NCBI GenBank assembly: GCA_016933045.1
Contig: JAFGBR010000058.1
Span: 1 to 64,000 of the forward strand
Length of the DNA: 64,000 nt
Source of the DNA: Marinilabiliaceae bacterium
GTDB lineage: Bacteria > Bacteroidota > Bacteroidia > Bacteroidales > Marinilabiliaceae
Direction of reading: 5' to 3'
Positions 869-10,917 of this stretch are shown here, one piece after another. Positions within the stretch are counted from its first letter, which is position 1, and the number at the start of each line of letters is the position of its first letter. The notes beneath the pieces were generated by a model. That model did no database searches and was not told the origin of the DNA. It was given only the letters and a program-made list of their open reading frames with translations. A program made the translations under genes and the position numbers.

Positions 869-2536
869 TTAGTAACTAAAGCTACTTCCTCCTAAAAATT
901 CTCTAACAATAGAAGTAGGTGGTATTTCGCGAGGTGATATGGGTTTGAAATATCGGAAGAATTTCAATAATCGTGTCGATTCGGCATATTCAGGTTGGTT
1001 TGGTTGAACTTGTAATAGAATAGGTTCAACAAAAGGTTTTAGTACCGGTAGTTCGTAAATTAGTGCTGAATTAAACATTACATCAGCCTCTTCCTGGTAT
1101 GGAAAAATATGTTTCTTTTCGCCACGGCGAACGCTTGGCCAGCGCGAAATGGTTTCTTTAGCCGAATAATTACGGTATTTGTAGTCACGTACAATTCTTC
1201 GAATAAGTCGGTTGTCTGTTGTGGGTATTCGATTGTGATCATCAACATTAATTGATGTTAATGCCGAAACATAAACTTTAAATTTCGATTCGGCAGGTAT
1301 GGAATGAGTTAGTTTAGGATTTAATCCATGTATTCCTTCAATAATAAGAATATTATCGGGTTTCATTTGTATCATTTCGCCATCGTACACGCGCTGTCCT
1401 TTTTCAAACGAAAATTTTGGTATTTCAACCTCTTTACCTTTAAGTAAATCAATTAATTGCTGATTAAAAAGTTCAATATCCAATGCTTCAAGAGATTCAA
1501 AATCGTATTCTCCATGTTCATCTTTAGGCGTGTGTTCGCGATCAACAAAATAGTTGTCTAGCGATAAATTGAGTGGCTTTAAGCCTGATACTTTAAGTTG
1601 AATTGCTAATCGTTTACTAAATGTAGTTTTGCCACTCGATGAAGGACCACTTATTAAAACAATTTTTATTTTTCCATTTTGTGATGATATCTGGTCGGCA
1701 ATTTGGGCTATTTTTTTTTCGTGTAGTGCCTCAGCAATTTTAATTATGTCTTCGGTGTTTTTGGCATCGCATTTTTTATTGAGTTCGCCAATATTACTAA
1801 CATTTAAAATGCGATTCCAGTTGGTGTGTTCTCTAAATATTTCGAACATTTTGTTTTGAATAATGAGGTCTTCAACCATATCGGGTTGATCTTGCCGTGG
1901 TAGTTGAAGCAGCATGCCATTGAAGTATTTATTCAAATCGAAAACCTGTAAATATCGGGTGCTTGGAACTAAGAAACCGTAATATGTATCGGCTAGCCCG
2001 TCTAATGTATAATACGAAGTATAAACGTTGCCCCGGTGTTTCATCACTTCGGCTTTATCGAGAAGGTTTTGCTTTTCGAATAATTCAACAACTTTATCTG
2101 TTTCGGCCTGGTGTTTAACAAACGGAATGTCCATTTTAACCAGTTCTCTCATGCGTTTACCAATATTTAAAACGTCTTGTATGCTAACGGGATTGTTTGT
2201 ATTGTGAATTTCGCAATATATTCCACGAGAAACAGAGTGTTCAATTGTTAGTTTGGCTTGAGGGAATAAATCGTTGACTGCTTTGTATAGTAAGAAATAC
2301 ATACTTCGCATGTACATTCTAATTCCTTCGTTGTGTGTAACATCAATAAACTGGACATTTTTTGGGTGGTAAACTTCAAAGTTAAGATCGGTTAATTTAT
2401 TGTTGACAAGAGCCCCTATAATAGGAGCTTTCATTTGTATATTAAGATCTTTTGATATTTCGAGTAGAGTTGTTTCTTTCGGATATTCTTTGATGACGTT
2501 ATTGTTTATGCACTTAATAGGAACTGTTTTTATCAT
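869..2536 (-). CDS. TGS-domain nucleoside (uridine-like) kinase
   Basis: A 555-residue cytoplasmic protein with a Bacteroidota-typical fusion. A TGS-like domain lies at about residues 1-65 (IKTVPIKCINNNVIKEYP). Next comes a region resembling the second additional domain of threonyl-tRNA synthetase (about 70-250, with HSVSRGIYCEIH). A C-terminal uridine kinase/phosphoribulokinase P-loop domain follows, with the Walker A motif GPSSSGKTT near residues 297-305. Further kinase motifs are LNLSLDNYFVDREHTP and LIIEGIHGLNP. Homologues are usually annotated as nucleoside kinase or uridine kinase; the role of the synthetase-like half is unknown, and nucleotide salvage is the likely pathway. A TAGTTTTG -7 element lies on the minus strand at 2565-2558, about 20 bases upstream of the start. 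Confidence 0.88.
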   Translation of the reverse strand: MIKTVPIKCINNNVIKEYPKETTLLEISKDLNIQMKAPIIGALVNNKLTDLNFEVYHPKNVQFIDVTHNEGIRMYMRSMYFLLYKAVNDLFPQAKLTIEHSVSRGIYCEIHNTNNPVSIQDVLNIGKRMRELVKMDIPFVKHQAETDKVVELFEKQNLLDKAEVMKHRGNVYTSYYTLDGLADTYYGFLVPSTRYLQVFDLNKYFNGMLLQLPRQDQPDMVEDLIIQNKMFEIFREHTNWNRILNVSNIGELNKKCDAKNTEDIIKIAEALHEKKIAQIADQISSQNGKIKIVLISGPSSSGKTTFSKRLAIQLKVSGLKPLNLSLDNYFVDREHTPKDEHGEYDFESLEALDIELFNQQLIDLLKGKEVEIPKFSFEKGQRVYDGEMIQMKPDNILIIEGIHGLNPKLTHSIPAESKFKVYVSALTSINVDDHNRIPTTDNRLIRRIVRDYKYRNYSAKETISRWPSVRRGEKKHIFPYQEEADVMFNSALIYELPVLKPFVEPILLQVQPNQPEYAESTRLLKFFRYFKPISPREIPPTSIVREFLGGSSFSY

Positions 2537-2598
2537 GGATAATTCTCTTTTAGTTTACAAAACTAAAGTAGCTATTTTAGTGCATATTATAAAATTAA

Positions 2599-5457
2599 TT
2601 ACTTTAACTCATCTCGAAGAAACTGTGCTGTGTAGCTCGATGGATGTTTTGCAACTTCTTCGGGTGTTCCTGAGCAAACTATTTCACCGCCATTTCTACC
2701 TCCATCGGGGCCAATATCGATTATATGATCGGCTACTTTTATTACATCTAAATTGTGCTCAATTACAATAACGGTGTTTCCTTTTTCAAGTAAACGGTTT
2801 AATACACCTAATAAAATTCTGATATCTTCGAAGTGCAAGCCGGTTGTAGGTTCGTCTAAAATATATATTGTTTTTCCGGTGTCTTTTTTTGCAAGTTCGG
2901 TTGATAGTTTGATGCGTTGCGACTCTCCACCCGAAAGGGTTGTAGATGGTTGTCCGAGGGTTATATAGCCCAGTCCAACATCTTGAATGACCTTAATTTT
3001 ATGAAGAATTGAGGGTATGTTTTCGAAAAATTCAACAGCCTGGTTTATAGTCATGTTAAGAACATCGCTGATGGTTTTTCCTTTGTAACGTACTTCAAGT
3101 GTTTCACGATTGTAGCGTTTGCCATCGCAGTCGGGGCAATGAACCATTACATCAGGAAGGAAATTCATTTCAATAACCTGAACACCTCCTCCTTTACAGG
3201 TTTCGCATCGCCCTCCTGACACATTGAATGAAAAACGTCCGGGTTTGTATGCTCTGATTTTTGATTCGGGGAGCTCGGCATACAGTTTTCTTATTTCGTC
3301 GAATACCTTTGTGTATGTAGCAGGGTTCGATCGTGGGGTGCGGCCAATTGGGGCCTGATCTACGTCAACTACCTTATCGATGTATTCAAGACCTTCGATA
3401 GAGTCGTATTCTAAAGGATCTTTAACCGATTTGTAGATGTATTGATTTAATATTGGGTATAATGTTTCATTTATTAATGTTGATTTTCCGCTTCCCGATA
3501 CTCCTGTAATACAAATAAATTTGCCTAATGGGAATTGGGCGGTAATATTTTTTAGGTTGTTGCCCTTTGCTCCTTTAATAATGATTTTTTGATCATTGCC
3601 ATCACGTCTTACTTTTGGTACAGGTATAGTTAATCGTTTTGCTAAAAAATCGGCAGTTAGAGATTTGCTTGCCAGCATTTCGGCAGGGGTGCCCTGTGCT
3701 ACAATTTCGCCTCCATGAATTCCGGCACGTGGTCCCATATCAATGATGTGATCAGCAGCCAGCATCATGTCACGATCGTGCTCAACAACTAGAACAGAGT
3801 TTCCCGAGTCACGTAATTGCGAAAGTGAGTTGATGAGTCGATGATTGTCTTTCTGATGTAGTCCTATGCTTGGTTCATCTAAAATATAAAGCACATTCAC
3901 TAACTGAGATCCAATTTGAGTAGCCAGTCTTATACGTTGACTTTCACCCCCAGAGAGTGTTACTGCACTTCGGTTGAGCGATAGGTAATCCAATCCAACA
4001 TCAATCAAAAAACTTAGCCGGCTACGAATTTCTTTTAAAATTTCGGTGGCAATACTTTTTTGTTTGTCTGAAAGATGTTTCTCTACATTTTTAAACCAAT
4101 TAGCAAGAATAGATAAGTCCATTTCGGCCAATTCGGAAATGTTTTTATCGGCTATTTTAAAATGTCGGGCTTCTTTGTTAAGTCTTAAGCCATTACATTC
4201 GGGGCATTTTATGGTTTGAATGAATTGATTGGCCCATTTGCGAGCTTTTTCAGAGGTGTCGTTATCTTGTTGGTCAATTATGTATTTAACAACTCCCTGG
4301 AAACTTAAAAAGTAATTTGTTTGAGTGCCAAGAGGTGTGTTTTTAAGTTTTATAGGTTCGCTTGATCCATGCAAAATAATATCAAGTGCCTCTTCTGGAA
4401 TATCTTTAATAGGTGTTTTAAGTTTAAAGCCGTGTTCTTCGGCAATGGCTTCAATTTGCCAAAAAATAAGAGAATTTTTGTGTTTTCCCAGTGGTGCAAT
4501 TCCTCCCTGGAAAATCGATTGCGTTGGGTCGGGAATAATTTTGTTAATATCCACTTCGTCAATTTGCCCAAGTCCTTTACACTTGCTGCAAGCCCCTTGT
4601 GGTGAGTTAAATGAAAAAGAGTGTGGGGCAGGTTCGTTATATGAAATTCCGGTTGTAGGGCACATTAACAAGCGGCTGTAATAGCGCGATTCGTTGGTTT
4701 CTTTTTCGATTACCATCATAATGCCTTTGCCTTGTTTCAAGGCAAGTTTAATCGATTCGGAAAGTCGTTTAGTGTCATCTGGTGAAACGTGAATCCGATC
4801 GATAACCAATTCGATAAAGTGGTTTTTGTAACGATCTACTTTCATTCCATAAACCAATTCTTTTATCTCACCATCAACGCGAACGTGTATAAACCCTTTT
4901 TTGCGTATTTGTTCAAACAGTTCTTTATAATGCCCTTTACGGCCTTTGACTAAGGGGGCAACTATGTATACTTTTTTGTTGTTGAAGTTTTCAAGAATAA
5001 GATCCTGAATTTGTTGGTCGGTGTATTTTACCATTTTTTCACCTGTTTCATACGAATAAGCCTCTCCGGCTCTGGCGTAAAGTAAACGCAGAAAGTCGTA
5101 TATTTCGGTAATGGTTCCGACTGTTGATCGAGGGTTTTTATTGGTTGTTTTTTGTTCGATTGATATCACAGGACTTAAGCCTGTTATCTGATCTACATCT
5201 GGCCGTTCCATGCCGCCTAAAAACTGGCGGGCATAAGCCGAGAATGTTTCGATGTATCGGCGCTGGCCTTCGGCATAAATAGTGTCGAAGGCCAATGATG
5301 ATTTACCACTTCCGCTTAATCCGGTAATAACAACCAATTGATTGCGTGGAATTGTGATGTCAATATTTTGAAGATTGTGAACTCTTGCTCCAAAAACCTG
5401 TATAGCATCTTCTTCAACCTCAATTTGCTCGTCTCTTATGTCGTCCTTCTGATTCAA
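2599..5457 (-). CDS. uvrA: Excinuclease ABC subunit A
   Basis: A 952-residue DNA damage-recognition ATPase of nucleotide excision repair; it loads UvrB on lesions. There are two ABC modules. The first Walker A is GLSGSGKSS at residues 46-54 and the second, GVSGSGKST, is near residue 655. Both signature motifs are present (LSGGESQRIRLATQIG and LSGGESQRIKLSTEL). The C-terminal zinc finger is intact (CETCKGGG...CPDCDGKRY). The first zinc module reads CPTTG...CSKC, so one of its usual four cysteines is replaced by threonine. A TATTTTTG -7 element lies at 5491-5484 on the minus strand, with no convincing -33. The product is near-certain from length and motifs. Confidence 0.98.
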   Translation of the reverse strand: MNQKDDIRDEQIEVEEDAIQVFGARVHNLQNIDITIPRNQLVVITGLSGSGKSSLAFDTIYAEGQRRYIETFSAYARQFLGGMERPDVDQITGLSPVISIEQKTTNKNPRSTVGTITEIYDFLRLLYARAGEAYSYETGEKMVKYTDQQIQDLILENFNNKKVYIVAPLVKGRKGHYKELFEQIRKKGFIHVRVDGEIKELVYGMKVDRYKNHFIELVIDRIHVSPDDTKRLSESIKLALKQGKGIMMVIEKETNESRYYSRLLMCPTTGISYNEPAPHSFSFNSPQGACSKCKGLGQIDEVDINKIIPDPTQSIFQGGIAPLGKHKNSLIFWQIEAIAEEHGFKLKTPIKDIPEEALDIILHGSSEPIKLKNTPLGTQTNYFLSFQGVVKYIIDQQDNDTSEKARKWANQFIQTIKCPECNGLRLNKEARHFKIADKNISELAEMDLSILANWFKNVEKHLSDKQKSIATEILKEIRSRLSFLIDVGLDYLSLNRSAVTLSGGESQRIRLATQIGSQLVNVLYILDEPSIGLHQKDNHRLINSLSQLRDSGNSVLVVEHDRDMMLAADHIIDMGPRAGIHGGEIVAQGTPAEMLASKSLTADFLAKRLTIPVPKVRRDGNDQKIIIKGAKGNNLKNITAQFPLGKFICITGVSGSGKSTLINETLYPILNQYIYKSVKDPLEYDSIEGLEYIDKVVDVDQAPIGRTPRSNPATYTKVFDEIRKLYAELPESKIRAYKPGRFSFNVSGGRCETCKGGGVQVIEMNFLPDVMVHCPDCDGKRYNRETLEVRYKGKTISDVLNMTINQAVEFFENIPSILHKIKVIQDVGLGYITLGQPSTTLSGGESQRIKLSTELAKKDTGKTIYILDEPTTGLHFEDIRILLGVLNRLLEKGNTVIVIEHNLDVIKVADHIIDIGPDGGRNGGEIVCSGTPEEVAKHPSSYTAQFLRDELK

Positions 5458-5624: not shown

Positions 5625-6611
5625 TCATGGATTTATTGATAATTCTGAAGTGTCATTTTTAAGGTTTGATATCGGGAGTTTAATAAAATAGCTTTTCTCT
5701 TTTGAAATTGTAAGTTGGGTTTCTCTTAACCATGGGTTTAGATTTTTTAGTTCTTTATAAGTAACTCCGTTAGATTTTGCAAACTCAGCAATGTCAGTTA
5801 TAGATTCAGTTATTTCTAAGTTGTAAGTCTTTAATTGTAGATATAGTTCGTCCTGAGTAACCACAAAGCCATATTTTTGTGGATCTGATAAAATAGTTTT
5901 TGCAGCTAAAATACGATATATATATCTTCCTGTCTCTTCGCCAAAAAGCAAATCATAATAATTTGTTTCTTTTTGACGATTTATTTGTTTTTGAATGCCA
6001 TTTACTCCTGCGTTATATGAAGCAGCTGCAAGGGTCCAGCTGCCTAAAGTTTTTTTAGCTTTTTTAAGGTATTTGCATGCAGCAATAGTTGCTTTTTCTA
6101 TGTGGTATCGTTCATCAACCTCGTTGTTTATTTCCAAGCCGTACGATTTGCCTGTTTCTTTCATAAATTGCCATATCCCAACAGCACCGGCAGGCGACTC
6201 TGCCCGCTCTAAAAAGCTACTTTCGATAAGAGCCAGATATTTAAAATCATCGGGTACAGTATCGGCCTTTAAAATAGGTTCAATAATTGGAAAATATCTG
6301 TTGGAACGTTTTATGAATAACAGGGTTTGCGATTGCCAATAAGAGTTCACCAATAACTCTCGTTCGAAAGCTTCTTTCACTTCGTATTGTTCAATTGGAA
6401 CCAGTTCGTTTGCAAAGTTTAATCCTAAAGGAATTTCGTGTGAAACGATGGCATACGTTTCGGGTGAATTGTTCGGTTCGTTATCTCCGTCGGGTAAAGA
6501 ACTCGAAATAAAAAGCTGCATCGAAAGCAACGAAATAGCTGTTAATGTAACTATTGAAAGGATTTTTATGTGGTTGTTTGAATTATTTGCTCCTATATAC
6601 ATCTCACTCAC
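5625..6611 (-). CDS. Lytic transglycosylase, MltD/SLT family
   Basis: A 328-residue exported muramidase-like enzyme that would cleave the MurNAc-GlcNAc bond of peptidoglycan to give 1,6-anhydro products. A hydrophobic N-terminal signal/anchor lies at about residues 17-38. The SLT domain (about 105-235) has the catalytic-Glu motif ALIESSF (Glu130), the motif GAVGIWQFM, and the helix motif AAASYNAGVNGI. The C-terminus (about 260-320, ITDIAEFAKSNGVTYKELKNLNPWL) resembles one LysM peptidoglycan-binding repeat. The start could be the ATG at 6611 or at 6602. It is a single-gene unit with its own promoter just upstream. Confidence 0.92.
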   Translation of the reverse strand: MSEMYIGANNSNNHIKILSIVTLTAISLLSMQLFISSSLPDGDNEPNNSPETYAIVSHEIPLGLNFANELVPIEQYEVKEAFERELLVNSYWQSQTLLFIKRSNRYFPIIEPILKADTVPDDFKYLALIESSFLERAESPAGAVGIWQFMKETGKSYGLEINNEVDERYHIEKATIAACKYLKKAKKTLGSWTLAAASYNAGVNGIQKQINRQKETNYYDLLFGEETGRYIYRILAAKTILSDPQKYGFVVTQDELYLQLKTYNLEITESITDIAEFAKSNGVTYKELKNLNPWLRETQLTISKEKSYFIKLPISNLKNDTSELSINP

Positions 6612-6735: not shown

Positions 6736-6766
6736 AAAAAAGTGGGCTTAATGAGTCCACTTTTTT
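6736..6766 (-). terminator. Terminator of the BlaI-M56/M23 operon
   Basis: A 13-bp stem (arms 6736-6748 and 6754-6766, one G-U pair, 5-base loop) with A- and T-rich flanks works as an intrinsic terminator in either direction. The only transcript expected to reach it is the minus-strand M56/M23 message, 140 bases past its stop. The rest of the 6612-6907 intergenic stretch holds the transglycosylase promoter and nothing else I recognise. Confidence 0.75.
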
Positions 6767-6907: not shown

Positions 6908-8665
6908 TCAGTTTTGAATAACCGATGATGGATTAATGTTTTCGCCATTCTTCATTATTTCAAGATGAAGGTGTGGCGCTGTTGACATTCCTGTATTACC
7001 AACGAATGCAATAATATCGCCTTGCTTTACATGATGACCTGCTTCGACTTTAAAATTATTTACGTGAGCATACAGAGAAGAGAAGCCATTGTCGTGATCA
7101 ATAATGAGATAGTTGCCATAACCGGTGGTGTCACTTTGTACTTCACGTACTATTCCGTTGCCAATAGCAATTATTTTGGTGTTGAGTTCGGCTTTATAAT
7201 CAATCGCATTGTGGAATTTCTTAATTTTATAAACAGGATGAATCCTCCATCCCCAACTTGCTGGAATAGAGGCAATTTCGTTTTCTTTAATTGGTAGAAT
7301 AAATGGCTTGCTATTCAAGTTTGCTGAATTACTGGTTGGCCCGATGTTTTTATGTTCAAAATGAATCATGATTGGATACTGGTTTTCAATAGCTTTTTTG
7401 CTGTCAGGATTGCAGTCTTCGTATGGTTTAGAAAATTTTTCGAGTGCCAGTTTGTTTCGCACATCTTTGTATGCTTCCAATACTTCCTGCAACACTTTGT
7501 TTGAAAAATCGTTGTAGCACTTGATATCTTTAGCCAGTAATATTTCTTTAATGTTTGTATTCTGAGTTAGAAATGTTGTTACAAAAGGTTTGATGTCTTG
7601 TATTTCGCCTTTCTTAATGCCCACAAGAATTTCATTTTTCCAGTTGATCAGGATCTGAGTGAAATTCTCTCCAAACTTTTTTTTCTGTAAGGGAGTGCCC
7701 TCAAACCAGAAATAAGTTGAGTCTGGTTTGTCTTTATCAGTTTTTGGCCAATTTTTATTATCAATGTATGAAGTGTTTTCCTCTCCTGAATTGATATCGA
7801 TACAAGCGATGCCAAAAATAAGTGTAGCAATAAGAATTGGAAAAATGATAAGTCCTTTCTTATAAGGATTTGAATGATGTGTTGCCATTTTAATACGTTT
7901 TTTAAGTTGTTGATAACTAAAATGATTAATAAATGGAGAATGGCGTCTGCAGTAAGCCAAATCCAGTACCAAATTGTAATATGATTGAATCGACTCAATT
8001 TCCGAAGTTGTTTTTCGATCGGCCTGAAGCTCATGAACTTCAATTAACGATCGTTTATAAAACATAAGCAGTGGATTGCACCACGAAAGCATCATAAGTA
8101 GTTCAAGAAACATTCTGTCGAACGAATGTTTTTGTTGTACATGAACCGACTCATGTTTTATGATTGTTTTACCGTTGCTGGTGTTTAAGAAATCTTTTGA
8201 TAGAAAAATGAATCTGAAAAACGAGAACGACGGTTGTTTACTTGTAATCACTATCGTATGTTCATCAGATTTCACTTTTTGATGCGTTCTGATATCATGG
8301 GCGATCTTCAACAGATGAGCTATAATGCGAATTGCAAAAACTACTGAAATTGCCAAATAGAGATAGAATAAAATAGTGTTCCAATCTATCATTGTCTGAT
8401 GATTGGTTTGCATTTCGTATGGTTCAAACTGGAACTGGTTCAGAGCGTATTGCCATTGAGGCGCGAAGTTCTGAATCGTATCTACAGGCTTTTCAACGCG
8501 GATATTGATCAACGGTACCGAATACGAGAACACGAGCGATAACAATAAGTACCATCTGTTAAGCGAGAAGAACGATTCGCGCCTTAACCACAACCAGTAA
8601 AACAGATAATGAATTGCAGAGATGCTGGTTGCTTTAATCAGGTAGAGCCAGAAATCACTTATCAT
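6908..8665 (-). CDS. BlaR1-like M56 membrane peptidase fused to M23 endopeptidase
   Basis: A 585-residue membrane protein. The first 290 residues follow the BlaR1/MecR1 plan: membrane helices near 5-27, 34-52 and 96-120, a cytoplasmic gluzincin site HESVH (His171, Glu172, His175) with the downstream motif EVHELQADRK, and a fourth helix near 270-287. In place of the penicillin-sensing domain, about 150 unrecognised residues follow. After these comes a complete M23 (LytM) domain at about 465-585. It has the zinc ligands His485 and Asp489 (FHNAIDYK) and the HLH motif His565/His567 (APHLHLEI). The inferred topology puts M56 inside and M23 in the periplasm. Its first 11 bases overlap the BlaI-type repressor gene, as in bla/mec operons. 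It may therefore sense cell-wall state and cut peptidoglycan; both roles are inference. Confidence 0.9.
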   Translation of the reverse strand: MISDFWLYLIKATSISAIHYLFYWLWLRRESFFSLNRWYLLLSLVFSYSVPLINIRVEKPVDTIQNFAPQWQYALNQFQFEPYEMQTNHQTMIDWNTILFYLYLAISVVFAIRIIAHLLKIAHDIRTHQKVKSDEHTIVITSKQPSFSFFRFIFLSKDFLNTSNGKTIIKHESVHVQQKHSFDRMFLELLMMLSWCNPLLMFYKRSLIEVHELQADRKTTSEIESIQSYYNLVLDLAYCRRHSPFINHFSYQQLKKRIKMATHHSNPYKKGLIIFPILIATLIFGIACIDINSGEENTSYIDNKNWPKTDKDKPDSTYFWFEGTPLQKKKFGENFTQILINWKNEILVGIKKGEIQDIKPFVTTFLTQNTNIKEILLAKDIKCYNDFSNKVLQEVLEAYKDVRNKLALEKFSKPYEDCNPDSKKAIENQYPIMIHFEHKNIGPTSNSANLNSKPFILPIKENEIASIPASWGWRIHPVYKIKKFHNAIDYKAELNTKIIAIGNGIVREVQSDTTGYGNYLIIDHDNGFSSLYAHVNNFKVEAGHHVKQGDIIAFVGNTGMSTAPHLHLEIMKNGENINPSSVIQN

Positions 8666-9035
8666 CTTTTTTTTGTTTAATGGTTTGGTCGATCATGTTT
8701 TTTAATTCTTCAAGTTCTGCTACCGACAAATTGCTTTCGCGTGTGAAGAACGAAGCAAATTGTTTTGGCGAGTTGTTGAAGAAGTTGTTAACCATTTTTG
8801 AGAAGAATGATTTTGTATAGTTTTCTTTTGAAATGGTTGGATAATATTCGTTAATCTTCCCGTAGGTGTTGTGTGCAATAAACCCTTTTTTTACCAAAAC
8901 TCTTATTACAGTCGAAATTGTTGTATAGGCAGGCTTTGGATCGGGGTATTGATCTACGATATCTTTTAAAAAGCCTTTTCCAATGTTCCACAAGTATTGC
9001 ATTACTTGCTCTTCTGCTTTGGTTAATTCTTTCAT
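8655..9035 (-). CDS. BlaI/MecI/CopY-family transcriptional repressor
   Basis: A 126-residue winged-helix repressor. It opens with the family signature (MKELTKAEEQVMQYLW) and the recognition-helix/wing motif AYTTISTVIRVLVKKGFI. A C-terminal helical dimerisation region contains LSVAELEELKNMIDQTI. In BlaI and MecI the partner M56 protease triggers cleavage of the repressor in this C-terminal part. The gene overlaps the M56/M23 gene by 11 bases, so the two are co-translated. Two identical dyads in the promoter are the likely operators, implying autoregulation. Confidence 0.95.
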   Translation of the reverse strand: MKELTKAEEQVMQYLWNIGKGFLKDIVDQYPDPKPAYTTISTVIRVLVKKGFIAHNTYGKINEYYPTISKENYTKSFFSKMVNNFFNNSPKQFASFFTRESNLSVAELEELKNMIDQTIKQKKDDK

Positions 9036-9055: not shown

Positions 9056-9086
9056 CAAATATACGACTATAAAAATAGTTATCAAA
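9056..9086 (-). promoter_or_regulatory. Promoter of the BlaI-M56/M23 operon with embedded operator
   Basis: On the minus strand, TTTG at 9086-9083 and TATATTTG at 9063-9056 are separated by exactly 19 bases, a full match to the Bacteroidota consensus. The dyad ACTAT-AAAA-ATAGT (9066-9079) fills the space between the two elements, so a bound repressor would block RNA polymerase. The inferred start is near 9050, about 15 bases before the repressor gene. Confidence 0.8.
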
Positions 9087-9105
9087 TTATTTTTATAAAT
9101 AAATG

Positions 9106-9119
9106 ACTATAAAAATAGT
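9106..9119. promoter_or_regulatory. Second BlaI-type operator dyad
   Basis: An exact second copy of the dyad ACTAT-AAAA-ATAGT. With one flanking base on the left it is identical to the 9065-9079 copy over 15 bases. The two copies lie 40 bp apart, nearly four helical turns, which would put two repressor dimers on the same face of the DNA. It lies about 20 bp upstream of the -33 element. Confidence 0.7.
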
Positions 9120-9285: not shown

Positions 9286-10917
9286 ATGAAAATATTTAAA
9301 AGAGTATTTGTGTTATTATTAATGTTATTTACTTTAACAAATAATTATACCCAAGCTTCGGACTGGGCTGTTAAGTTTGCTGATGCGATCATTGCAAGGT
9401 GGCCAAACAGTATTAATGATATGACCGGTAAATCGTGGGAATATTCAAATAGTATTGTCCTACATGGAATAGAGAAGGCTTACGAAGAAACTGGTGATGT
9501 TAAATATTTGAATTACATTAAAAATTTTGTAGATGATTATGTAGATGAAAGTGGGAATATTAAATATAAAACCACAGCTAATAATTTAGATTTACTTCAT
9601 CCAAGCTTATTGTGTATCTTTTTATATGAGCAAACCGGACTTGAAAAATATAAGATAGCAGCTCAAAATACCCGAAACAAATTTAATTCTCATCCCAGAA
9701 ACGCATCAAATGGTTATTGGCATAAGGACAATTATCCAAATCAGATGTGGTTGGATGGAATATATATGGCCGAACCATTTTTGGTTAAATATGGAAATTT
9801 GTTTAACGATACAGCTTATTGTAGTGCAGAAGCAACATTTCAGGTTTTGTTATTGGCCGATCATGCTTATGATCAAACAAAAAAGTTGCTTTATCATGGA
9901 TGGGACGAAACAAAAACTGCATCGTGGGCTAATTCAACAACAGGTGTGTCGCCCGAAATTTGGTCGAGAGCAATGGGGTGGTACGCTATGGCAATGGTTG
10001 ATATATTGAAGTATTTGCCTAAAACTGATGCAAACTACAGTAAGATGATTACTTTAATGCAGAATATAGCAGAAGGTTTGAAAAACACACAAGATGCTAC
10101 AACTGGACTTTGGTATCAGGTAGTCGATAAAGGAACTTCGACAGGCAACTGGATTGAGACGAGCGGTAGCGGTATGTTTATTTATAGTTTGAAACATGCA
10201 ATTGATCAGGGATATATTGATGATAGTTATATGGATGTTGTAAATAAAGCTTGGGTCGGATTGCAGAATTATATTACAATAGATTCTTATAGCAGACCAG
10301 TAATAAGTAGTTATGTTGGTAGTATGGGTATTTTAGACAGTTATAGCTCGTATGTGGGAAAAAGCAAGGAAACTTGCCCAGCATCGAAACATCCTCATGG
10401 GTATTGTGGTTTTTTAATGGCTGCTACGGCTATGGAAAATACACCTCGTAAAATATTCCAAACACATATTAATGTGGTTGGAAATGGTAGTTATGAGTTT
10501 TTAAGTGGAGGCTTTTTGTGCGATTCTGGCAGGGTTGTTAAAATTAAGGCTATAGCAAATGGTAATGATCCATTTACCAGTTGGACTGGCGATGTGAATG
10601 GGACAAACGAAACTTTGTCGTACACTATAACTGACGATACCTACATTGATTTGAATTTTGGAGTTGTTGATGGTATTATAAATAACAGAACACCTGATCT
10701 GGTTTTTTTTCAAAATCCGGTAAAAGAATCATTGTCAATAATTACAGATAAAAACGTTGAGTTAGTTGAGATTTATAATATAAACGGAAGCTTGTTAAAG
10801 CAGGTTGAAAATATGGTTGATCAGTCAATCGATATGACAGATTTGCATAGTGGTATTTATTTTATAAATGCTATTATTGATGGTAATTTTGTGTGTAGTA
10901 AAGTTTTAAAGAATTAG
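9286..10917 (+). CDS. Secreted GH105 family glycoside hydrolase with C-terminal sorting domain
   Basis: A 543-residue exported enzyme with a signal peptide at residues 1-24 (cleavage probably near QAS). The (alpha/alpha)6 barrel of unsaturated rhamnogalacturonyl/glucuronyl hydrolases spans about 25-385. It includes MWLDGIYMAEPF, where Asp157 fits the catalytic aspartate of the family, and WSRAMGWYAMAMVDIL. GH105 enzymes remove the unsaturated uronic acid that polysaccharide lyases leave on oligosaccharides. A short beta-rich module follows (about 390-455). The last 75 residues (LVFFQNPVKESLSIIT...GIYFINAIIDG) look like a type IX secretion sorting domain. Most characterised GH105 enzymes lack such a tail. 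No SusC/D pair or lyase is nearby. Confidence 0.85.
   Translation: MKIFKRVFVLLLMLFTLTNNYTQASDWAVKFADAIIARWPNSINDMTGKSWEYSNSIVLHGIEKAYEETGDVKYLNYIKNFVDDYVDESGNIKYKTTANNLDLLHPSLLCIFLYEQTGLEKYKIAAQNTRNKFNSHPRNASNGYWHKDNYPNQMWLDGIYMAEPFLVKYGNLFNDTAYCSAEATFQVLLLADHAYDQTKKLLYHGWDETKTASWANSTTGVSPEIWSRAMGWYAMAMVDILKYLPKTDANYSKMITLMQNIAEGLKNTQDATTGLWYQVVDKGTSTGNWIETSGSGMFIYSLKHAIDQGYIDDSYMDVVNKAWVGLQNYITIDSYSRPVISSYVGSMGILDSYSSYVGKSKETCPASKHPHGYCGFLMAATAMENTPRKIFQTHINVVGNGSYEFLSGGFLCDSGRVVKIKAIANGNDPFTSWTGDVNGTNETLSYTITDDTYIDLNFGVVDGIINNRTPDLVFFQNPVKESLSIITDKNVELVEIYNINGSLLKQVENMVDQSIDMTDLHSGIYFINAIIDGNFVCSKVLKN

Follow-up and report, generated by a model that had tools for sequence, protein, structure and literature searches.

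Results

Organization of the locus

The window, the whole 64,000-nucleotide stretch of Marinilabiliaceae bacterium DNA analysed here, carries on its minus strand a BlaI-type repressor gene and, overlapping it, a gene for a BlaR1-like membrane protein. Throughout, the comparison set comprises 14 Marinilabiliaceae proteins with their loci, namely the window protein, its 12 best-ranked relatives and the protein of genome G068. The features, in window coordinates, are as follows.

5625..6611, minus strand: MltD-type lytic transglycosylase gene (Pfam SLT, E 2.3e-24), probably its own transcription unit
6736..6766, minus strand: terminator-like hairpin between the receptor gene and the MltD-type gene (-14.1 kcal/mol, z -6.36 against shuffles)
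6908..8665, minus strand: M56-ExbD-M23 receptor gene, 585 aa, ATG start (ORF, Pfam, model)
6911..7324, minus strand: M23 domain, residues 448-585, with H485, D489, H534, H565 and H567
7340..7666, minus strand: likely ExbD-type periplasmic domain, residues 334-442 (ExbD profile, fold match)
7796..8665, minus strand: M56 transmembrane protease part, residues 1-290, with HESVH at 171-175, Glu212 and Asp216; TM4 at about 269-289
8655..9035, minus strand: blaI repressor gene, 126 aa (Penicillinase_R), overlapping the receptor gene by 11 bases
9056..9063, minus strand: Bacteroidota-type -7 box TATATTTG, with TATRTTTG in 14 of 14 upstream regions
9066..9079, minus strand: candidate operator 1 (proximal), ACTATTTTTATAGT, flanked by a TTTG and the -7 box
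9086..9099, minus strand: candidate operator 2 (middle), degenerate in the window (three mismatches) and better kept in several relatives, in a 20-bp register
9106..9119, minus strand: putative operator 3 (distal), ACTATTTTTATAGT, by sequence

The repressor is placed in the BlaI/MecI family by its Penicillinase_R domain (Pfam, E 3.3e-30; MecI structures, E 6.5e-8) together with a likely operator on its own promoter, and blaI precedes the receptor gene in all 13 relatives.

The MltD-type gene was considered as a co-regulated member of the system. That idea is weakened by the hairpin, which was spotted by eye and was not listed by a consensus terminator scan, by the lack of an operator before the gene, and by its variable position: it lies downstream in 8 of the 14 loci and upstream of blaI in another 4, with no such gene seen in the remaining 2. 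The gene uvrA follows in the 12 loci that have the MltD-type neighbor. On the other side, a divergent GH88-type glycoside hydrolase gene with a T9SS sorting domain (9286-10917, plus strand) points away from the blaI promoter.

A BlaR1-like membrane protease with a periplasmic tail

The classic examples of membrane proteases that lift repression are BlaR1 and MecR1. The window protein matches the M56 family above the curated Pfam cut-off (E 5.8e-11, residues 43-260), and the residues of its zinc site, H171, E172, H175, E212 and D216, are invariant in all 41 aligned rows. The spacing of 37 between His175 and Glu212 equals that between His205 and Glu242 of BlaR1, as numbered in PMC9834060. It is the sole M56 match at E <= 0.001 in its own genome (3.9 Mb, 82 contigs, 95% complete).

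An AlphaFold2 model of the full receptor (pLDDT 81, pTM 0.55) overlays Staphylococcus aureus BlaR1 (8exs_A) across residues 5-252, with a VIA Z of 16.2 over 218 residues; the predicted model thus has the BlaR1 membrane-protease fold, and it matches M23 enzymes at a Z of about 15. Four long helices are modelled (2-27, 33-52, 95-127 and 267-287), three of which are also detected by a simple hydropathy cut-off. A sequence-only reading of this DNA had proposed the four-helix M56 plan with HESVH at 171-175 and had suggested modelling the protein; the plan is borne out by the reading frame, Pfam and the helices, and the model has an M56 part resembling BlaR1 and a C-terminal domain resembling M23 enzymes. 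No BlaR1 chain appeared among the PDB matches of an M56-ExbD profile, and the link of this part to BlaR1 is drawn from Pfam and the predicted model. Pfam found no penicillin-binding sensor domain in the window protein, the C-terminus of which consists of the ExbD-type and M23 domains.

Charges flanking the helices in nine aligned proteins fit an N-terminus outside, the M56 site inside and the tail outside. The stretch preceding TM4 holds five to eight K/R and no D/E in all nine, and the second loop zero to one K/R and three to seven D/E; the stretch past TM4 is less clear, with K/R exceeding or equalling D/E in two of the nine. Charges and model therefore agree in placing the M56 protease in the cytoplasm and the ExbD-M23 tail in the periplasm, as had been proposed, and nothing was found that puts M23 in the cytoplasm. 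The wider proposal of a BlaR1-type protease with a periplasmic wall-directed part and a BlaI repressor alongside is likewise supported by the overlapping genes and their shared operator-promoter.

The linker is likely an ExbD-type domain

About 150 residues between the two peptidase domains had been described as matching no known domain. That description fails: profile, Pfam hits in relatives' linkers and fold all identify the linker as ExbD-type. The idea arose by eye and was then tested. For the window linker by itself Pfam gives nothing, ExbD included. Aligned with the periplasmic part of a free ExbD from the same genome (on contig C46; Pfam ExbD, E 7.6e-21; an ExbB-like gene lies beside it, by eye), the linker reaches a Smith-Waterman score of 100, against a shuffle mean of 33 and none as high in 1000 shuffles; two other ExbD paralogues give no such signal with it. 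As a query against 71 genomes of the family, it has hits in 67; most of these are frames of about 160-220 aa, and nine further frames measure about 590-610 aa. Three of the short-frame ExbD-type proteins, from relatives, were read whole (L054, L060 and L064).

We built a profile from the periplasmic parts of 11 free ExbDs, the 11 of 24 loci that passed a filter for the ExbD-type N-terminal motif. With Z=1000, its match to the window linker reaches E 6.9e-12, split over two stretches (0.088 and 2.6e-9), and eight other linkers of ExbD type score E 3.7e-9 to 1.5e-26. Pfam ExbD was found in three of eight linkers (best E 1.8e-4), the window's own not among them. When the linker was modelled alone (pLDDT 79, pTM 0.76), the top five Foldseek matches were ExbD at E 4.4e-3 to 3.2e-2 and probability 1.00, with TolR at rank 7 and no match below 0.001. 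In VIA, the first six rows were all TolR/ExbD (Z 8.0 to 5.8; next row 4.7). A profile of the linkers did not find ExbD among PDB sequences. Each single fold score is modest; because rank, profile and Pfam agree, the window linker is likely the periplasmic domain of a Bacteroidota-type ExbD, the Ton motor stator.

A conserved Asp in the N-terminal channel helix defines ExbD, and TM4 of the window protein, taken as 271-289, has no Asp. The window protein contains an ExbD-type domain yet is no ExbD, and since the channel helix is absent, the Ton mechanism cannot be transferred whole. The finding also amends the view that M23 takes the place of the BlaR1 sensor: a periplasmic, wall-directed tail is supported, but the spot beside TM4 is held by the ExbD-type domain and M23 lies further out.

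A decayed M23 domain had also been considered for the linker and was dropped: in tandem proteins the proximal M23 clusters with free M23s and not with the distal domains, and the predicted fold of the linker is that of ExbD. Two genes of another genome of the family (G080) bear on this domain type. In L067 (2046-3752), a blaI gene is followed by an M56 protein that lacks M23 and carries two successive ExbD-like domains. Matches to these two halves are free frames with lengths of about 160 and 180 aa, like those of the two ExbD types in Bacteroidota; the first half matches Pfam ExbD at 1.8e-4, below the cut-off, and the second matches the 11-ExbD profile at E 0.0084. L066 (1938-3035) encodes a probable lipoprotein with an ExbD-like domain (Pfam E 7.9e-7, above the cut-off) and no membrane protease.

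Fusion of M56 to M23 in relatives

A scan of genome contigs with the single window protein as query returned no match. An M56-ExbD alignment was then scanned against named genomes, and the best 79 of 136 confirmed relatives were considered. M23 is present in 13 of the listed 79; the 12 best-ranked are all Marinilabiliaceae (Carboxylicivirga, Saccharicrinis, Labilibacter and others named to family level) and all carry it. The search for the domain order, which the sequence-only reading had recommended, thus finds M56 fused to M23 in 14 of 14 Marinilabiliaceae proteins, the window included. Nine have ExbD-M23 tails, three M23-M23, one a putative ExbD remnant before M23 (L082) and one M23 attached directly (L087). 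The single-protein fusion holds in the 13 closest relatives compared, with no separate-protein versions seen among them. As the ExbD-type domain is absent or a remnant in 5 of the 14, the design can do without it.

In a set of 393 genomes of the order, which includes few Marinilabiliaceae, the full-length matches among those listed were the window and G021 only. In 20 further hand-picked places in the order, M56-M23 fusions occur in family f97 (four genomes), f31 (two neighboring genes in one genome) and f82 (one). A Saprospiraceae protein of 841 aa (L152) also joins M56 to M23, with some 330 further residues beyond M23. In a tree of M56 domains, built from 25 of 83 earlier protein sequences and the M56 sequences of the 20 loci, the 14 Marinilabiliaceae proteins form one clade (100/97); the M23 label has to change three times, by gain or by loss, and the backbone has weak support. 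Identity between the window and its 13 relatives is 71-78% for BlaI and about 34-39% for the receptor in its longest aligned piece, so the repressor changes slowly and the receptor fast.

The tails interchange among ExbD-M23, M23-M23 and M23 alone, and elsewhere in Bacteroidota M56 proteins carry TonB-like tails (named by eye). Such variety would be expected if the tail were a mere anchor at the wall or at a Ton-type motor and the M56 protease were controlled by something else. We regard this as distinctly unlikely, given that M56 and M23 stay together in all 14 Marinilabiliaceae proteins and that no distal M23 domain among them has lost the metal site.

An M23 active site that is intact in the window and eroded in relatives

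The M23 match exceeds the curated Pfam cut-off (E 1.3e-30, residues 483-579). The site had been given as H485, D489, H565 and H567, all read as metal ligands. These positions stand, and we take H485, D489 and H567 to be the ligands; H565 is, by analogy with Pgp3, a catalytic His that is not a ligand, and H534, the second catalytic His (YAH motif), had been overlooked. Its alignment with Pgp3 H216 is inferred from the matching ranges and from the spacing, since in both proteins the following catalytic His stands 31 residues on (534/565 and 216/247). For Pgp3, H216 or H247 has been proposed as the general base, neither binding zinc (PMC6978369); PMC8269130, on EnpA, seems to treat the other catalytic His. 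Every one of the 14 distal M23 domains, that of the window among them, retains the HxxxD and HxH metal site (H485, D489 and H567 in the window). With both catalytic histidines also present, H534 in YAH and H565 as the first His of HxH, the window protein has a full set of five active-site residues.

The relatives differ at one position. That of H534 is His in the window and in Labilibacter marinus and Gln in the other 12 of the 14, that is, in 12 of 13 relatives. Among the fusions of other families, Gln stands there in three of four from f97, and one f31 gene reads S, V, N, H and Y at the five positions, most of its site being lost; His is kept in the neighboring f31 gene, the f82 fusion and L152. 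Free M23s keep the catalytic His and an intact site in 17 of 17 (the 17 of 26 loci left after filtering). At locus L205 (genome G213), two adjacent M56-M23 genes, 287-1873 with a mostly lost M23 site and 1877-3598 with an intact one, possibly form a pair of dead and live receptors.

How often the His was lost is uncertain, because the M56 and M23 trees disagree on L. marinus and the larger M23 tree is unresolved there. In the smaller M23 tree, the window and then L. marinus branch before a clade of the 12 Gln proteins (82/81), as if the His had been lost once. In the M56 tree, L. marinus is sister to the Gln-bearing L081 (100/99), a pairing that needs a second loss, a regain or a domain exchange. 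In the larger M23 tree the window and L. marinus are not resolved as first branches, and the well-supported branches force one Gln change only. Gln probably arose more than once, since the M56 tree separates f97 from Marinilabiliaceae.

The sequence-only reading had proposed that one protein both senses and cuts the wall. As a shared role this is unlikely, with a catalytic His replaced by Gln in 12 of 13 relatives and lost again in the fusions of other families; these patterns favor wall binding or sensing over cutting as what the M23 domains have in common. The window protein itself could still cut, because it keeps all five residues. By analogy, M23 in the fusions may be an enzyme turned binding domain, as in BlaR1, whose sensor domain has a beta-lactamase fold.

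The intact site of the window protein also suits a different explanation, in which a tethered wall endopeptidase governs its own supply: M23 would be the output, M56 and BlaI would match its amount to need, and sensing would be indirect, for instance through BlaI being bound by peptidoglycan fragments. This reading fits the window protein equally well and its relatives less well; where the His is Gln or lost, the fusion persists, as do the operators in the 13 relatives. We consider it rather unlikely.

A candidate operator array on the blaI promoter

The Bacteroidota -7 consensus is TAnnTTTG. In all 14 loci, a candidate operator, ACTAT-N4-ATAGT with at most one mismatch, overlaps the blaI promoter and ends two bases before TATRTTTG; by eye, it sits just past a TTG. 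Counted with no more than one mismatch, the 14 upstream regions contain 34 sites, located at about -81, -61 and -41; in 300 shuffles the mean was 0.29 and the maximum 3. This test is not independent, because the motif was read from the same sequences. A 20-bp register sets the sites on one helix face. The BlaI motif TACA-N-TGTA was also sought and is not the conserved element.

Single sites are not enriched: ACTAT-N4-ATAGT occurs 12 times in the window's own genome (control 14), and in the window, where 2.9 matches with no more than one mismatch are expected, there are four. Nor is ACTATWWWWATAGT, found four times in that genome, twice at the blaI promoter and twice inside open frames, against six for a reversed control pattern. 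Only array, position and recurrence therefore carry weight. Two sites spaced 40 bp apart, with no more than two mismatches, occur in 10 of 11 fusion-bearing genomes, and there only at the blaI-receptor promoter; in G021 the pair has three mismatches, a level at which the reversed control gives up to four matches in one genome (G061). Pairs at 20-bp spacing with at most two mismatches occur elsewhere once each in seven genomes (G061, G063, G070, G012, G068, G069 and G021), and all seven precede another blaI-M56 pair (M56 by profile, E 4e-60 or better). Two three-mismatch matches (G063:C159 and G070:C1:590253) also precede such pairs; of the remaining ones, only the two in the window's own genome were opened. 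One of these, L260:76-109 on contig C29, is a weak pair shortly before a probable lipoprotein gene and may be chance.

ACTAT-N4-ATAGT thus looks, from these arrays, like a general operator of blaI-M56 pairs. Paralogous blaI-M56 operons with the same operator type lie at L182, L184, L177, L183, L185, L186, L191 (near 1501) and L255 (2074-2107), so cross-talk between receptors is possible in those genomes. As close arrays in the 11 genomes stand only before blaI-M56 pairs, the circuit seems to be mainly self-regulating; weaker or single sites elsewhere in the genome could act too. That the close array of the window's own genome lies only on the operon's own promoter is also what an endopeptidase governing its own supply would show, and BlaI of Bacillus licheniformis is bound by a wall dipeptide (PMC3305447).

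The same search bears on a beta-lactam resistance switch of the BlaR1/MecR1 kind, in which BlaI would control a beta-lactamase or penicillin-binding protein gene elsewhere. BlaI and M56 do belong to the protein families of that switch. With no penicillin-binding sensor domain found by Pfam in the window protein, and with nine of the ten other exact operator sites of the genome lying within long open frames and the tenth (on contig C44) intergenic, 7 bases past one frame and over 200 bases upstream of a probable lipoprotein gene, we hold this to be very improbable.

Discussion

From the computed domain identities, the fusion in relatives, the orientation and the operator array with its locations, we propose, with a probability of roughly 60%, that the window protein is a BlaR1-like transmembrane receptor of peptidoglycan state in a self-amplifying circuit. 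As we infer it, the M23 domain would bind wall peptides, in the window protein perhaps also cutting them, and, lying beyond the ExbD-type domain, would confer stem-peptide specificity. The ExbD-type domain would relay the change through TM4 to the cytoplasmic M56 protease, which would inactivate BlaI and free the operator array on the blaI promoter. The main induced product would be the receptor and its repressor, hence a self-amplifying wall monitor. BlaR1 cleaves BlaI directly and forms a domain-swapped dimer (PMC9834060), and the periplasmic domain of ExbD, a dimer, undergoes changes of state and makes contact with peptidoglycan (PMC10771500); by analogy, an M56 protease that carries such a domain right on its TM4 could act as a wall-dependent switch. 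Against this reading, the M23 domain of the window keeps its whole active site and may simply be an enzyme.

In Ton motors, the ExbD dimer normally gates a proton channel. More tentatively, and as a possibility that we would not yet favor, a piece of the Ton motor may have been made into a signal switch: a peptidoglycan-responsive ExbD dimer would gate a membrane protease, and the reading head would be an M23 domain that is worn down in most relatives. On this view, M23 would have turned from enzyme into sensor on more than one occasion within M56 receptors, a parallel to the penicillin sensor of BlaR1.

The system shares with BlaR1/MecR1 and BlaI/MecI the M56 HExxH...E protease, an extracytoplasmic C-terminal part, a neighboring BlaI-family repressor and operators on its own promoter. 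It differs in its ExbD-M23 tail where they have a penicillin-binding domain, in the ACTAT-N4-ATAGT array, and in that no resistance gene was found at exact operator sites. Bacteroidota M56 proteins with TonB-like tails (by eye) use the same M56 chassis with another tail. With ExbD/TolR stators the window protein shares the fold and sequence of the periplasmic domain, whereas M56 TM4 replaces the channel helix. In NCBI annotation, M56-M23 combinations carry the product name 'M23/M56 family metallopeptidase'.

A review of M23 peptidases mentions proteins with both M23 and M56 domains, and M23 with any second catalytic domain makes up less than 1% of its matches (PMC9662197). The window protein is like these in having both peptidase domains in one chain and, as far as the review describes them, unlike them in the ExbD-type domain between, the repeated loss of the M23 catalytic His, and the operator and BlaI context. 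EnvC, NlpD and Csd2 also retain the M23 fold with catalytic parts lost (PMC9662197), as in the relatives here; they act on or with other wall enzymes, whereas the present domain is fused to a signalling protease, and most relatives have lost one catalytic residue and the window protein none. Our literature search returned no paper that describes a BlaR1-like protein with an ExbD domain and none listing M56-ExbD-M23 (one genome report names both words once), and no paper naming a signal for Bacteroidota relatives of BlaR1/MecR1. The M56 chassis and the M56-M23 combination are known; the proposed ExbD-containing sensor part seems to be new.

The natural series of intact, His-to-Gln and dead M23 domains, with and without ExbD, lets wall sensing be separated from wall cutting, and the defined candidate operator offers a readout of the circuit's output. 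The receptor would tie the stator fold of the Ton motor to transmembrane signalling.
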